From NCBI GenBank assembly GCA_021787395.1, contig JAJYLZ010000005.1, forward strand, positions 39,366-103,365: a stretch of DNA of 64,000 nucleotides. The letters are read 5' to 3'. The notes beneath the pieces are model-generated. The model had not been told where the DNA came from. It ran no database searches and was given only the letters and a program-made list of their open reading frames with translations. Below are positions 14,211-57,838 of this stretch, one piece after another. How positions within the stretch are numbered: the first letter of the stretch is position 1; each line of letters starts with the position of its first letter. This DNA is from Chloroflexota bacterium. GTDB taxonomy: Bacteria > Chloroflexota > Limnocylindria > Limnocylindrales > CSP1-4. The position numbers were made by a program, and so were the translations under genes.

Positions 14211-14354
14211 CCGACTGCGCCGTGGGCGGGGGAAGGTGCCGCGCCCAGGTGCGACCCGGCGGGCGCGGCGCCCTCACGCGGCGTCCGTGCACGGGAGACG
14301 GGCAGAAGGTCGTTCTGCAACCCCTCGTGCCATGGGTGGTAGCATCCCGTCCAG

Positions 14355-14518
14355 AGCCTTCGGGGCAGGGTGCAACCCCCGACCGGTGGTAGGGCCCGGC
14401 GCAGTCCGGGCGAGCCCACGAGCCAAGCCGCGGCGCAGTGCCAGCGGGGCGGCAGATCCGAGGCGAGGCGCGTCCTCGTCGACCGGAGCCGACGGTACAG
14501 TCCGGATGAGAGAAGGCT
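14355..14518 (+). promoter_or_regulatory. FMN riboswitch (RFN element)
   Basis: The conserved core of the FMN aptamer is directly readable: GGGGCAGGGTGCAACCCCC, then CCGACCGGTGGTAG, GAGCCCACGAGCC and, at the 3' side, GAGCCGACGGTACAGTCCGG followed by ATGAGAGAAGG. P1 closes with AGCCTTC (14355-14361) against GAAGGCT (14512-14518). Downstream, CCGTCG (14556-14561) can pair with CGACGG (14573-14578), which touches the GGAGG ribosome site of the next gene, so translational control is plausible. It controls the ABC transporter operon that follows. Confidence 0.93.
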
Positions 14519-14589
14519 GTGGTCGGCCGCGTCCGCGCGGGCCGATCGCCCTGCCCCGTCGTGCCCGAGCAGCGACGGAGGCACAGCGC

Positions 14590-53011: not shown

Positions 53012-53551
53012 CTACCGCCGCACGTGCACGCCCTCGAGCGCGAGCAGGGCCGCCTTGAGGTCCAGCGCCGCCTCGACCCCGCCCCAGGCCGCCGCCCCGT
53101 ACCCGCCGAGCGACCCGTCGGCGGCGATCACCCGGTGGCAGGGGACGAGCAGGCCGACGGGGTTCCGCCCGACCGCGCCGCCGGCGGCCCGCGCCGCGCC
53201 CGCCCGGCCGGACCGCCGGGCCACCTCGCCGTAGCTCAGCGTGGCGCCGCGGGGGATGGTGCGCACGACGCCCAGGATCAGGCGGTCCCAGGCCGGCCGG
53301 TCGCCGAGGTCCACGGGGATGGCCCCGAGGTCCACCGCCTCGCCCTCCAGCATCGCCGCGGCGGCGTCGGCGGCGGCCCGCAGGTGGACGAGCGCCTCGC
53401 CGCGCGCATCGGGCGGGGCGACGACCAGGCCCCGTCGCGCGAGCCCGGCCGCGAACCCGTCAGCCGTTGACAGGAGCTCCAGCGCAGCCACCCCGGCCCG
53501 TGTCGCGGCGATCCGAACCGTCCCGAACGGCGACGGCACCTCGACGGTCAC
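53012..53551 (-). CDS. methylated-DNA--protein-cysteine methyltransferase (Ogt/MGMT)
   Basis: A DNA repair enzyme that transfers alkyl groups from O6-alkylguanine to its own cysteine. Active-site motif GLLVPCHRVIAADGSLGGYG is intact, preceded by TIPRGATLSYGEVARRSGRAGAARAAG. About 179 residues from a GTG at 53551, chosen because TATGCA (53558-53563, minus strand) lies six bases upstream; an ATG at 53569 is the alternative. Divergent from the lysine leader peptide. Confidence 0.92.
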   Translation of the reverse strand: MTVEVPSPFGTVRIAATRAGVAALELLSTADGFAAGLARRGLVVAPPDARGEALVHLRAAADAAAAMLEGEAVDLGAIPVDLGDRPAWDRLILGVVRTIPRGATLSYGEVARRSGRAGAARAAGGAVGRNPVGLLVPCHRVIAADGSLGGYGAAAWGGVEAALDLKAALLALEGVHVRR

Positions 53552-53586
53552 GCATGGTGCATAGAACATATTCACGGCTGGAAGTG

Positions 53587-53615
53587 TTGCATCCAAGGCT
53601 GAGTGCTGGCATGAT
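53587..53615 (+). promoter_or_regulatory. promoter of the lysine (dapB-dapA-dapD-lysA) operon
   Basis: -35 TTGCAT (53587-53592) and -10 CATGAT (53610-53615), 17 bases apart. The predicted start of transcription is nine bases from the leader-peptide ATG, so that reading frame would be nearly leaderless. Confidence 0.65.
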
Positions 53616-53624
53616 GCGCCAGTC

Positions 53625-53705
53625 ATGTCGCACCTCATCTTCGCCTTCGACGCCAAGAAGAAGCCTTGGCGGCCCGGTCGGGAGACTCGGGCCCTGGGGC
53701 TCTGA
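53625..53705 (+). CDS. putative lysine-sensing leader peptide (26 residues)
   Basis: A 26-codon frame that starts nine bases after the -10 and ends before the attenuator hairpin. It encodes MSHLIFAFDAKKKPW... with three consecutive AAG lysine codons at 53655-53663. It precedes only dapB, dapA, dapD and lysA, all lysine-pathway genes. This is the layout of ribosome-mediated transcription attenuation: stalling at the lysine codons when charged tRNA-Lys is scarce. Expression and stalling are inferred. Confidence 0.6.
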   Translation: MSHLIFAFDAKKKPWRPGRETRALGL

Positions 53706-53747
53706 AGGCGCGCAAGCGACGAACCTCGAGCCTCCGGGACCGGAGGC
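53671..53747 (+). promoter_or_regulatory. alternative hairpins of the lysine attenuator
   Basis: Immediately downstream of the lysine codons, GGCCCG (53671-53676) can pair with CGGGCC (53688-53693). A second hairpin joins GCCTCCGG (53730-53737) to CCGGAGGC (53740-53747). GCGGCCC (53669-53675) is also complementary to GGGCCGC (53755-53761) in the terminator arm, so exclusive foldings are possible. Confidence 0.45.
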
Positions 53748-53755
53748 GATGAAGG

Positions 53756-53786
53756 GGCCGCGAACACCGAGGCGGTGGACGCGGCC
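53756..53786 (+). terminator. terminator-like hairpin before dapB (attenuator)
   Basis: Long interrupted stem: GGCCGCG (53756-53762) pairs with CGCGGCC (53780-53786), and CACCG pairs with CGGTG inside. It is followed by TTTGTGATTCTT. It lies between the leader peptide stop and the dapB ATG at 53848. Confidence 0.65.
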
Positions 53787-53847
53787 TTTGTGATTCTTCG
53801 GACCTCCGGAACCGCGGGCGGACAGCGCGGAAAGGACAGTCCGGATC

Positions 53848-54615
53848 ATGCACCTCCTCCTCTACGGACCGGGACGACTCGGCAGCGCGATCGCTGACGC
53901 CGCCACCGCGCAGGGCTGGACCGTGACCGCCATCGGGCGGCCGCCGCTCCACGGGCCCCGCGTCGAGGCGCCCGCCGCCGACGTGGTCGTGGACGCCTCG
54001 ATCGGCGCGGCCGTGCCGGCGAACCTGGCCCACGCCATCGCCGCCGGCAACCGTGCGTTCATCCTGGCCGCCACCGGCTGGGACGTGGACCAGCCCCGCG
54101 TCCGGGCGATGCTCGCGGAGCACGACGCCTCCGCGGTGGTCGCCACCAACCTCTCGCTCGGCGCCGCGCTGTTCATCCGCCTCGTCGAGCGGGCCGCCGC
54201 CTGGTACGCCTGCGCCGGGGCCTTCGAGCCGTCGATCGTCGAGTGGCACCGCCGCGGCAAGGCGGACCGGCCGTCGGGCACCGCCCGCGCCATCGCCCGC
54301 CGGATCGCGGCGGTCGACCCGCGCTGGGCCGGGCCGGACGATCCGCGCGAGGCGGGCGACGCCGGATCGGCCCGGCCGGCGCTGGAGATCGCCGGCATCC
54401 GCGCCGGCGCCGCGCCCGGCTCGCACCTGGTCACGTTCGACGGCCCGGGCGAGTCGGTGGAGCTGCGGCTCACCGCCCGCGACCGCACGGCCTACGCCGA
54501 CGGCGCCCTGGCAGCCGCCCGCTGGCTGACCGCGAGCCCCCGGACCCCCGGCCTGCACCCCTTCGACGCCGTCGTGGACGACCTCCTCGATGCCGGCGTC
54601 GCCGTCCCCGCCTGA
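53848..54615 (+). CDS. dapB: 4-hydroxy-tetrahydrodipicolinate reductase
   Basis: A 255-residue lysine-pathway enzyme. The nucleotide loop is LLLYGPGRLGSAIADAA. The catalytic segment reads EWHRRGKADRPSGTARA: His134 and Lys138 match the conserved general-acid and substrate residues, but the second His of the usual HH pair is Arg135. First enzyme gene of the lysine operon. The next gene begins 48 bases downstream with its own AAGGAG. Confidence 0.88.
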   Translation: MHLLLYGPGRLGSAIADAATAQGWTVTAIGRPPLHGPRVEAPAADVVVDASIGAAVPANLAHAIAAGNRAFILAATGWDVDQPRVRAMLAEHDASAVVATNLSLGAALFIRLVERAAAWYACAGAFEPSIVEWHRRGKADRPSGTARAIARRIAAVDPRWAGPDDPREAGDAGSARPALEIAGIRAGAAPGSHLVTFDGPGESVELRLTARDRTAYADGALAAARWLTASPRTPGLHPFDAVVDDLLDAGVAVPA

Positions 54616-54663: not shown

Positions 54664-55641
54664 ATGCCTCGCGTCAACCCCGCCGCCCCCCGCCTCCGCG
54701 GCGCCTTCACCGCCCTCGTGACCCCGTTCACCACCGATGGCGCGCTGGACGAGACCGCCTACCGCCGCCTGGTCGCCTGGCAGGTGACGGCTGGCATCGA
54801 CGGGCTGGTCCCGGTCGGCACCACCGGCGAGTCGCCCACGCTGTCCGCAGCCGAGCGCGACCGGTGCATCGCGATCGCGGTGGAGACCGTCCGCGAGCGC
54901 CGCGCGACCACGCGCGTGCCCGTGATCGCGGGCACCGGCTCCAACGACACGCGGAGCTCCATCGAGGCCACCCGCCGGGCCGCTGCCCTGGGCGCCGATG
55001 CCGCGCTCGTCGTCACGCCCTACTACAACAAGCCCGACCAGCGGATGCTCGAGGCGCACTTCCGCGCCGTCGCCGACGAGGGCGGCCTGCCGATCGTCGT
55101 CTACAACGTGCCCGGCCGGACCGGCGCCAACGTCGAGGCGGACACGTTCCTGCGGCTCGCCGAGCATCCGAACGTGGTGGCGGTGAAGGAGGCCAGCGGC
55201 AACATCGAGCAGCTGGCGGTCATCTGCCGCGACCGGCCGCGCGACGTGGCGGTGCTGTCCGGCGACGACGCCGCGACGCTCGCGATCCTCGCGATGGGCG
55301 GCGACGGCGTGATCTCGGTGGCGTCCAACCAGATCCCGGGCGAGATGAGCGCGCTGGTCGGCGCGTGGCACGCGGGCGACTGGGCCGCCGCGCGCCGCAT
55401 CCACGACCGCTGGCTGCCGCTGATGCGCGCGAACTTCCAGGGCGCCCCCAACCCGGTGCCGGCCAAGGCCGCGATGCTGGCGATGGGCCTGCTCGACGAC
55501 GACACCACGCGCCAGCCGCTGCTGCCGCTGGCCGACGCGCCGCGCGAGCGCCTGACCGCGCTGCTGCGCTCGCTGGGCCTGCTCGACGGCGGGGGCCGGA
55601 TGGCCGGGGCCGCGGCGACGGCCCGCGGCGTGGCCGCATGA
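54664..55641 (+). CDS. dapA: 4-hydroxy-tetrahydrodipicolinate synthase
   Basis: A 325-residue (beta/alpha)8 enzyme condensing pyruvate and aspartate semialdehyde. Motifs: LVPVGTTGESPTLSAAERD with the catalytic Thr-Thr pair, VVTPYYNKPDQRMLEAHFRAV with the active-site Tyr, IVVYNVPGRTGANVE and the Schiff-base lysine in VVAVKEASGNIEQL. AAGGAG lies eight bases before the ATG. Overlaps dapD by four bases. Confidence 0.95.
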   Translation: MPRVNPAAPRLRGAFTALVTPFTTDGALDETAYRRLVAWQVTAGIDGLVPVGTTGESPTLSAAERDRCIAIAVETVRERRATTRVPVIAGTGSNDTRSSIEATRRAAALGADAALVVTPYYNKPDQRMLEAHFRAVADEGGLPIVVYNVPGRTGANVEADTFLRLAEHPNVVAVKEASGNIEQLAVICRDRPRDVAVLSGDDAATLAILAMGGDGVISVASNQIPGEMSALVGAWHAGDWAAARRIHDRWLPLMRANFQGAPNPVPAKAAMLAMGLLDDDTTRQPLLPLADAPRERLTALLRSLGLLDGGGRMAGAAATARGVAA

Positions 55642-56462
55642 CGGCCGATGTCGCGCCCGGCTTCGACCCCGACGCCGTCCTGGCCGAGCTCGACGCCGGC
55701 CGCCGGCGCGCCGCGGTGCCGGACGGCGCCGCTCCGGGCGGCTGGCGCACGGACCCCGACGTCAAGTCGGCGATCCTCGCCCGCTTCCGGGACCGCGCGC
55801 TCGCGACCTGGGACCTGGGCGGCGCCCTGCGCTTCGCGGACCGCGTCGGCCTACCCGTCAAGGAGCTGCTCGACGGGCCCGAGGCCGACGCCGCTGCCCG
55901 GGCGGGCCGGCCGTGGCGGATCGTGCCGGGGGGAACCTCCGTGCGCGCGGGCGTCTACCTCGGGCCGGGCGTCGTGGTCATGCCGCCGTCGTTCATCAAC
56001 GTCGGCGCGTGGGTCGGCGAGGAGACGATGGTCGACTCGCACGTGCTGGTGGGCTCGTGCGCGCAGATCGGCGCCCGGGTGCACCTCTCGGCGGGCGTGA
56101 CGATCGGCGGCGTGCTCGAGCCCGCCGGCGCCCGCCCGGTCATCGTGGAGGACGGCGTGTTCGTCGGGGCCGGCTGCTCGCTCCTCGAGGGCGTGCTGGT
56201 CGGCGCGGGCGCCGTCATCGGGGCGGGGACGGTCCTCACGGGGACGTCGCGGGTCTACGATCTGGTCCGCGGCCGGGTGCTGGCCGGCACGCGCGATGCG
56301 CCGCTGGCCGTGCCGCCCGGGTCCGTGGTGGTGCCGGGTACGCGGGCGGTGGCGGGCGGCTTCGCAGCCGAGCACGGGCTCGCGATGTCCGTCGCGCTGC
56401 TGGTCAAGGACCGCGACGCCGGGACCGACGCCCGGGTCGCCCTGGAGGATGCGCTGCGATGA
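55638..56462 (+). CDS. dapD: 2,3,4,5-tetrahydropyridine-2,6-dicarboxylate N-succinyltransferase
   Basis: A 274-residue left-handed beta-helix acyltransferase. The hexapeptide repeats run from VRAGVYLGPGVVVMPPSFINVGAWVGEETMVDSHVLVGSCAQIG to VHLSAGVTIGGVLEPAGARPVIVEDGVFVGAGCSLLEGVLVGAGAVIGAGTVL. The signature MPPSFINVGAWVGEGTMVDSH is nearly intact. ATG at 55638 overlaps dapA; its own stop overlaps lysA. Presence of dapD indicates the succinylase branch. Confidence 0.94.
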   Translation: MTADVAPGFDPDAVLAELDAGRRRAAVPDGAAPGGWRTDPDVKSAILARFRDRALATWDLGGALRFADRVGLPVKELLDGPEADAAARAGRPWRIVPGGTSVRAGVYLGPGVVVMPPSFINVGAWVGEETMVDSHVLVGSCAQIGARVHLSAGVTIGGVLEPAGARPVIVEDGVFVGAGCSLLEGVLVGAGAVIGAGTVLTGTSRVYDLVRGRVLAGTRDAPLAVPPGSVVVPGTRAVAGGFAAEHGLAMSVALLVKDRDAGTDARVALEDALR

Positions 56463-57838
56463 GCCCGGTCCGAGAGCCCGCGCCGAGCGCCGGCGACCCT
56501 GCGGCGGCCCGCGCCCGGGGCGACCGGCCGGCGGTCCGCAACGAGGTGCTGCGCGACGGCCGGCTGGCCGGCATCGAGCCGGCGCTCCTCGCCGACCGCT
56601 TCGGGACGCCGGCCTACGTGTACGACCTCGACGTCGTCACCGGGCAGGCGGAGGCGCTCCTGGCCGCGCTGCCGGCACGCTTCGACCTCGCCTACGCCGT
56701 CAAGGCGAACCCGAACCTCGCGGTGCTGCGCCACCTCGCGGCGATGGGCCTGGGCGCGGACGTGGCGTCGGGCGGGGAGCTGCGCCACGTCCTGCGGGCC
56801 GGCCTCGACCCCGCGCACGTGGTCATGACCGGGCCCGGCAAGCGCGACGAGGAGCTGGCCGCCGCGATCGAGGCGGGCCTGCGGGCCGTGACGGTGGAGT
56901 CGGTCGGCGAGCTCCGGCGCCTCGCGCACCTGGCCGAGGGGCTCGGGCGCCCCCAGCGGGTCCTGCTCCGCGCGGCCGTGGCCGACGCCGCGCGGCTCGA
57001 GCGGGTGCGCCTCGTCGGGGACGACGGCGCCGGCAAGTTCGGCATGGACCTGCGCGACCTGCGCGTCGCCGCGGGCGAGGCCGTGGCGTCGCCCTGGCTC
57101 GAGCCCATCGGACTGCACGCGTTCGGTGCGTCCAACGTGACCGACCCGGAGGCGCTGGCGGCCCACGTCGAGGCGACCGTGCGCACCGCGCGGACCCTGG
57201 CGACCGAGGTGGGCTTCGAGCTCCGGCTGGTGGACGCGGGCGGGGGCCTCGGGATCCCGTACGAGGAGCACGAGGCCGAGCTCGACCTGGCGGCGCTGGG
57301 CGCCCGCCTGGCTGCGCTCTCCGCGCGGATGGAGGCGGACCCGGCCACGCGCGGCGCGAGGCTGCTGCTCGAGCCCGGCCGATTCCTGGTCGGGCCCGCC
57401 GGCGCCTACCTCGCCCGCGTCCTGGAGCGCAAGGAGGTGGGCGGCCGCCAGGTTGCGATCCTGGACGGCGGCATCCACCACGCGCTGCGCCCCGCGCTGG
57501 TCGGCCAGCAGCACCGGGTTCGCGTGCTGACCGGCTCCGGGGCGGGTGCAGGCGCCGTCCCCGGCCGCCTCCCGGTGACGGTCGCCGGACCGCTCTGCAC
57601 CGGGCTCGACGTGTTCGTCCGCGCGGCCGTGATGGCCCCGCCGGACCCCGGCGACCTCGTGGCCGTGCTCGACGTCGGCGCCTACGGGGCCACCGAGTCC
57701 ATGCCGCTGTTCCTCTCGCACGCGATGCCGCCCGAGGTCGCGGTTCGCGGCGGCGAGGCGTGGGCGGCGCGGCCGCGGATCGACCCGGACACCTGGCTCG
57801 GCTGGCAGGTTGGGGAGCCGGGCGGTTCGCAGGGCTGA
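56459..57838 (+). CDS. lysA: diaminopimelate decarboxylase (LysA-like)
   Basis: A 459-residue fold-type III PLP decarboxylase. YDLDVVTGQAEALLAALP, the Schiff-base lysine in LAYAVKANPNLAVLRHLA, GLGADVASGGELRHVL, HAFGASN, VDAGGGLGIPY, LLEPGRFLVGPAGAYLARV and VAGPLCTGLDVF are in the expected order. The active-site cysteine motif is CTGLD rather than the usual CESGD, and DGGIHHALRPAL is reminiscent of related type-III decarboxylases. Operon context makes DAP decarboxylase the best call. Confidence 0.88.
   Translation: MSPVREPAPSAGDPAAARARGDRPAVRNEVLRDGRLAGIEPALLADRFGTPAYVYDLDVVTGQAEALLAALPARFDLAYAVKANPNLAVLRHLAAMGLGADVASGGELRHVLRAGLDPAHVVMTGPGKRDEELAAAIEAGLRAVTVESVGELRRLAHLAEGLGRPQRVLLRAAVADAARLERVRLVGDDGAGKFGMDLRDLRVAAGEAVASPWLEPIGLHAFGASNVTDPEALAAHVEATVRTARTLATEVGFELRLVDAGGGLGIPYEEHEAELDLAALGARLAALSARMEADPATRGARLLLEPGRFLVGPAGAYLARVLERKEVGGRQVAILDGGIHHALRPALVGQQHRVRVLTGSGAGAGAVPGRLPVTVAGPLCTGLDVFVRAAVMAPPDPGDLVAVLDVGAYGATESMPLFLSHAMPPEVAVRGGEAWAARPRIDPDTWLGWQVGEPGGSQG

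Follow-up and report, generated by a model that had tools for sequence, protein, structure and literature searches.

The RNA leader that precedes dapB-dapA-dapD-lysA in the window analyzed here, a stretch of 64,000 nucleotides from a Chloroflexota genome (G000; 3.45 Mb assembled in 96 contigs), is very probably a ribosome-mediated transcription attenuator that senses lysyl-tRNA. This reading is built on computed conservation, codon identity, base pairing and alternative folds, from which we infer leader translation, ribosome stalling, termination, readthrough and control by lysine supply. Ribosome-mediated attenuation is a known kind of regulation; on our best reading, the amino acid and the phylum are new here, and the sensor is exchangeable.

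A preliminary description of this locus had proposed a promoter that drives a 26-codon frame starting nine bases downstream and containing three consecutive AAG codons. All three elements lie exactly where it had placed them, and the leader and its downstream genes can be summarized as follows (window coordinates).

53587..53615, + strand: promoter, with TTGCAT at 53587-53592, a 17-nt spacer and CATGAT at 53610-53615 (read from the sequence)
53625..53705, + strand: leader peptide gene, MSHLIFAFDAKKKPWRPGRETRALGL and a stop codon, 26 codons, ATG at 53625 (open reading frame conserved in relatives)
53655..53663, + strand: sensor, three Lys codons AAG AAG AAG (read from the sequence; Lys kept in relatives)
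53669..53675, + strand: strand 1, GCGGCCC (W-R-P codons), the antiterminator 5' half and also the P1 5' arm
53671..53693, + strand: P1 hairpin core, strand 1 with strand 2, predicted to form without a ribosome and to sequester strand 1
53696..53702, + strand: strand 2, GGGGCTC, whose partner within the antiterminator rod is 53728-53734
53728..53734, + strand: strand 3, GAGCCTC, the rod partner of strand 2, otherwise in P3
53730..53747, + strand: P3 hairpin, GCCTCC-GGGACC-GGAGGC, belonging to the terminating conformation
53755..53761, + strand: strand 5, GGGCCGC, the terminator 5' arm and antiterminator 3' half
53756..53798, + strand: predicted intrinsic terminator, stem 53756-53786 plus a U-rich tail
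53798..53847, + strand: predicted hairpin around the probable dapB ribosome-binding site (AAAGGAC, 53831-53837), from folding; conserved in the genus only
53848..54615, + strand: dapB, 4-hydroxy-tetrahydrodipicolinate reductase (TIGR00036, E 4e-27, below cut-off)
54664..55641, + strand: dapA (TIGR00674, above cut-off)
55638..56462, + strand: dapD, whose start overlaps the dapA stop (NF008808, above cut-off)
56459..57838, + strand: lysA-like PLP decarboxylase, whose start overlaps the dapD stop (TIGR01048, E 6e-79, below cut-off)

NCBIfam profiles bear out the earlier assignment of the four genes that follow the leader as lysine/DAP enzymes. The identities of dapB and lysA are clear although their scores fall below the NCBIfam cut-offs; TIGR03099 scores slightly above TIGR01048 on the lysA-like decarboxylase, likewise below cut-off. 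On the other side of the leader, a divergent minus-strand gene (window 53012-53569) carries a PCHRV motif and probably encodes a methylated-DNA-cysteine methyltransferase, and a conserved GCATAGAACATATTCACG between this gene and the leader may be the promoter region of the divergent gene.

Several features of the leader sequence bear on its predicted function. First, the -10 element lies only 9 nt before the leader ATG, and thus the mRNA is predicted to be leaderless or nearly so. Second, GCGGCCC at 53669-53675 is complementary to GGGCCGC at 53755-53761, and P1 pairs the W-R-P-x-R codons with the codons that precede the stop. Third, the leader fold is more stable than all 200 of 200 dinucleotide shuffles (z -3.2), and its promoter, frame, Lys codons, hairpins and terminator all recur across a family of genomes. 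The terminator that had been proposed at 53756-53786 with a T-rich tail holds for its stem, in which 53756-53762 pair with 53780-53786 and are followed by TTTGTGATTCTT, but the U-tract is imperfect in the genus of the window; relatives show a GC-rich stem with CTTTTTTG or CTTTTTCG tails. A generic promoter and terminator scan of the window leader, run with thresholds too strict for this sequence, reported neither element.

We propose that transcription would begin at the ATG of the leader gene, or a few bases 5' of it, and that the leaderless mRNA would be translated at once. When lysyl-tRNA is plentiful, the ribosome would clear the Lys codons, P1 (strand 1 with strand 2) and P3 would fold in the nascent RNA, the terminator would form from strand 5 and its 3' arm, and RNA polymerase would halt 5' of dapB. 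When lysyl-tRNA is scarce, the ribosome would instead halt once the first Lys codon occupies its A site, such that its front edge masks the base of P1 and GCGGCCC (the W-R-P codons) stays free. Strand 1 would then pair with the terminator 5' arm and strand 2 with strand 3, turning the whole leader into one long rod that would preclude the terminator and allow transcription of dapB-dapA-dapD-lysA.

Conservation of the leader and its pairings

A leader of the same plan is present at each dapB locus read among the relatives of the window genome, of which 41 were searched and 16 gave a detectable dapB. These loci do not include L018, a second and weak dapB-like match; a split dapB hit in G001 was counted once, as L017. 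The most divergent leader (L014) keeps the Lys-rich frame and the terminator but not the exact sequence of the pairing between strands 1 and 5 (1:5). A covariance model built on 14 leaders and run on 177 genomes of the class Limnocylindria finds matches in 80 of them, counting lysine-type leaders and weaker matches of other types together, and in a set of 400 genomes from across the phylum, searched with stricter filters, its matches are confined to Limnocylindria.

From these searches we assembled a clean alignment of 66 distinct lysine-type leaders from the Chloroflexota class Limnocylindria. Nearly all reside in the family of the window (f1), with two more (in G158 and G168) in family f5. 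A dapB match is found directly downstream of every aligned leader with enough downstream sequence (65/65); L123 stands at a contig edge and is outside this count, and L128, which has no dapB downstream, is a Met-type rather than a Lys-type leader. One genome, G052, holds two lysine-type leaders on different contigs (L026 and L036), each before a dapB-like gene, and is possibly a mixed bin.

The preliminary description had predicted that a short frame with clustered Lys codons would be conserved in relatives, and the 63 leaders read in frame (one contig is present twice, as L022/L111) agree with this prediction. At least two of the three sensor codons specify Lys in 62 of the 63, the exception being L033 with one, and Lys occupies both positions of a K-x-K pattern in 58. 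Sensor Lys codons are AAG 135 times and AAA 6 times, and the background frequency of Lys in three window proteins is 1.6%. The candidate start codon is ATG in 59 leaders and GTG in 4, and the sensor lies 13-21 codons from the stop. Furthermore, 61 of 63 leaders have a -10-like hexamer 4-13 nt, most often 9 nt, upstream of their start codon, a proximity that suggests leaderless translation, and some relatives carry leaders with a TTGACA-17-TATGGT promoter.

Along with the start and stop, the peptide core K-x-K-x-W-R-P-x-R-E-A-R is conserved in relatives, and such conservation is unusually high for an attenuator leader. It would be expected if a small molecule caused this peptide, as a nascent chain, to arrest the ribosome and the identity of the Lys codons were incidental. 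We find this explanation extremely unlikely, given that what is conserved in the core is its RNA: 63/63 leaders use CGG for the Arg of strand 1, a residue that six codons could encode, and changes in the core preserve pairing. Likewise, the L005/L006 clade lacks the Trp residue yet keeps GCGGCCC, and Met or Cys replaces the sensor Lys on the same platform before Met or Cys genes, as detailed below.

The alignment of 66 leaders was fitted to P1, P3 and the terminator, but not to the antiterminator. Nevertheless, 99.8% of cells across the seven 1:5 pairs hold standard base pairs. U-G takes the place of C-G in ten leaders, and double compensatory changes to U-A occur at different pairs in L107 and L117, with a single mismatched cell in L116. 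Compensatory pairs are present in P1 also, and thus the compensatory changes that the preliminary description had anticipated for the hairpins are seen there as well as in the antiterminator helix. Four of the seven 1:5 pairs are invariant, and part of the variation is common by descent. When 1:5 is combined with the pairing of strands 2 and 3, 94.0% of cells pair versus 30-62% in slid controls, and 13 cells are changed on both sides versus 4.6 in shuffles, although these controls ignore the tree. The conservation of strand 1 is partly due to P1 and to coding constraint. As a genome-wide pattern, the spaced 1:5 complementarity alone occurs at chance level (15 matches versus 13 in the reversed control), and its evidential weight is a matter of its fixed place and its conservation.

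The conserved elements also bear on whether the leader peptide acts mainly on dapB translation, through the hairpin at 53798-53847, rather than on transcription termination. In favor of this arrangement, the predicted structure around the ribosome-binding site is conserved in the genus, but, unlike the terminator and antiterminator, it is not kept across the family. On this evidence, primary control at the level of translation is highly improbable. The same hairpin could be a second layer of control for dapB.

Leader folding with and without a ribosome

To represent translation of the leader, we modeled the ribosome as a 28-nt footprint and folded the RNA transcribed so far, which constitutes a crude model. 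Without a ribosome, the usual predicted fold comprises P1, P3 and the terminator. With the A site of the footprint set at the first Lys codon of the window leader, the prediction is a single rod that pairs strand 1 with the terminator 5' arm and strand 2 with strand 3. This includes the very helix, 53669-53675 with 53755-53761, that had been offered as an antiterminator in the preliminary description. The hairpins at 53671-53693 and 53730-53747 had been described there as mutually exclusive; their positions stand, but they do not exclude one another, and each is excluded by the antiterminator instead.

Across 61 leaders, a ribosome whose A site holds the first Lys codon gives a mean antiterminator probability of 0.80, falling to 0.40 one codon farther, 0.04 two codons farther and 0.00 at three to eight codons past the first Lys, compared to 0.28 without a ribosome. 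Ribosome positions 5' of the sensor also permit the antiterminator (0.58-0.79), and therefore a halt is predicted to antiterminate as far as the sensor codons but not beyond them. Within the limits of the model, this is how a classical attenuator that stalls its ribosome at the first Lys codon would behave.

Two aspects of the modeled cycle deserve mention. A stall at the second conserved Lys covers strand 1, and as a result the footprint model accounts for only part of the requirement for K-x-K; a slightly shorter effective footprint, equivalent to a shift of one codon, could explain the second Lys. In addition, with the ribosome at the stop codon, footprint folding leaves strand 1 free again behind the ribosome, an ambiguous state, and thus termination in times of plenty would rely on quick ribosome release and refolding of P1.

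Methionine and cysteine versions of the platform

The lysine covariance model also gives full-length matches of lower score, frequently a single additional one in a genome; these leaders share the plan but carry M-x-M in the sensor position. In the genome of the window, a leader reading MTHTTVSWLMCMRGRPRRSETGAEIAAR up to its stop codon precedes metY and metX. This paralogous leader (G000:C17:26004-26155; L093, L129) includes WLMCMRGRPRR, in which a Met/Cys sensor is followed by the same terminator and antiterminator plan. Other Met-type leaders have M-C-M, M-S-M, M-A-M or M-Q-M as the sensor.

Cys codons occupy the sensor in a further group. Leaders L150 (G006:C121) and L151 (G008:C95) read MACCCCRRRPRSRE in the platform register and stand before a DUF4395 gene, which in the case of L151 is followed by a ThiF-family gene. 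We had considered L150 as a Val-rich leader (VVVVDGGP) and rejected this assignment, as the frame in the platform register is that of a Cys leader (MACCCCRRRPRSREDVVRKD) on the same platform. A joint covariance model recovered additional Cys-type leaders, as follows.

G003:C77 (L224): C-T-C leader before a PALP-family (cysteine/cystathionine beta-synthase-like) gene
G085:C52 (L226): C-V-C-M-C leader before a gene with a nitrite/sulfite reductase ferredoxin-like domain
G085:C11 (L227): C-P-C leader before a rhodanese-domain gene

A modeled stall at the sensor yields the same antiterminator in Met- and Cys-type leaders, and the parts of the platform are sensor codons, W/R-R-P codons, a rod-like antiterminator and a GGGGCCGC terminator. 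These versions are the apparent regulators of metY-metX and of sulfur genes. The sensor codons vary in step with the pathway encoded downstream, and in our judgment nothing argues more strongly for their role as sensors. We consider it probable that one homologous RNA chassis was copied within Limnocylindria, with its sensor exchanged according to the pathway (Lys for dapB-dapA-dapD-lysA, Met for metY-metX and Cys for sulfur genes), and that it takes, in the lineage of the window, the place of the lysine riboswitch of the sister families.

Some additional leaders were noted in the course of these searches. L225 (G015:C3:230195-230318) reads MNRTTREMCRRWRPRRSEDGV and precedes a carbonic-anhydrase-like gene, and the M-C-M leaders L158 and L104 precede OsmC-like genes, with a metY-like gene next in the case of L158. 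Two other loci of the window genome were examined as members of the platform and rejected. The region before ilvB has a separate Leu-rich frame, LLRSLLLGLEGLLGLLITGSRRENGG, with a terminator (L172, G000:C47), making it a separate candidate for a branched-chain attenuator, and trpE has a candidate T-box-like leader, GGGTGGCACCGCGG, instead (L188, G000:C36).

Relation to known leader peptides and riboswitches

In the open-access full-text literature, we found no published description of a lysine leader-peptide attenuator, nor of any leader-peptide attenuator in Chloroflexota, in keeping with the earlier suggestion that a peptide-based lysine attenuator would be new. This literature attributes the control of lysine synthesis at the RNA level to riboswitches. 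For example, lysine and methionine are listed as riboswitch-controlled in other species, and no RNA element was found before the lysine and methionine operons of Actinobacteria (PMC1262725). The authors of another study, which added Firmicutes, knew of earlier demonstrations of leader-peptide systems in no phyla other than Proteobacteria and Actinobacteria (PMC2965389).

The dapB leader resembles the trp, his, leu, ilv, thr and phe leaders of Proteobacteria and the trp and ilvB leaders of Actinobacteria (PMC1262725) in that a short leader gene carries clustered codons for the end product of the operon, and it shares with classical attenuators a mutually exclusive terminator and antiterminator and pathway genes downstream. 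Unlike these systems, it is predicted to sense lysine, it occurs in another phylum, and its antiterminator is one long rod in which the codons after the sensor pair with the terminator 5' arm.

Leaderless leader peptides offer a second comparison. The trpL leader peptide of S. meliloti is leaderless (PMC10117765), mycobacteria have polycysteine leaderless ORFs according to a study known to us through its citation (Canestrari 2020, cited in PMC13236596), and a Met leader, metL (MSTTSDRTPATEATTTPGARCMCRRMCAF), has been proposed before metNIQ in S. lividans (PMC8079986). As predicted for the dapB leader, the start codon in these examples lies at or near the transcript start, with the same proviso of a secondhand source for the mycobacterial Cys ORFs. 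The sensor codons also match the pathway, and the Cys and Met members of the present platform resemble these leaders in codon choice, whereas the dapB leader is predicted to sense another amino acid. No clear intrinsic terminator was reported for mycobacterial cys (PMC1262725) or for S. lividans metL (PMC8079986), and a platform with exchanged sensor codons was not found in the open-access literature on leaderless leader peptides. S. meliloti SEP5, with three Lys and six Thr codons, lies upstream of a gene that its authors link to the aspartate-Thr-Lys pathway and was suggested to be a leader peptide, with no RNA structure described (PMC10117765); unlike the dapB leader, it has mostly Thr codons and a different gene.

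The preliminary description had also pointed out that lysine operons are usually controlled by the lysine riboswitch, and this expectation is borne out elsewhere in the class. RF00168, which controls the same pathway, is present in 25 of the 177 Limnocylindria genomes, all in sister families f3 and f4, and none is among the matches listed for family f1 in this class-wide search, whose control was positive in 4 of 14 control genomes (E. coli, B. subtilis, T. maritima and L. lactis). The lysine riboswitch binds lysine directly, without a leader peptide. We rejected this riboswitch for the window leader, which has no RF00168 match, and we likewise rejected a T-box, prompted by GGAACCGCG at 53808-53816 that resembles part of the T-box sequence, for which there was no Rfam match. 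Rfam assigns the window leader to no family, giving only chance-level matches (E 1-10).

A metabolite-binding riboswitch, for lysine or another ligand, that contains a short frame by chance would be in line with a structured leader and with the lysine riboswitches of the sister families. To this possibility we assign next to no probability, since the fold amounts to a simple bistable rod and a frame with its start, Lys codons and stop is kept throughout, in addition to the Rfam and RF00168 results given above. With a riboswitch in sister families and an attenuator with its full set of conserved parts in the window's family, the exchange of one RNA sensor for another can be followed within a single class. 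The Met and Cys copies allow tests of how a regulatory RNA shifts its specificity via two or three codons. Carriers of these leaders are mostly uncultured Chloroflexota (Limnocylindrales). Elsewhere in the window, an FMN riboswitch at 14352-14521 scores 67.5 bits, just over the gathering score of 66.2.
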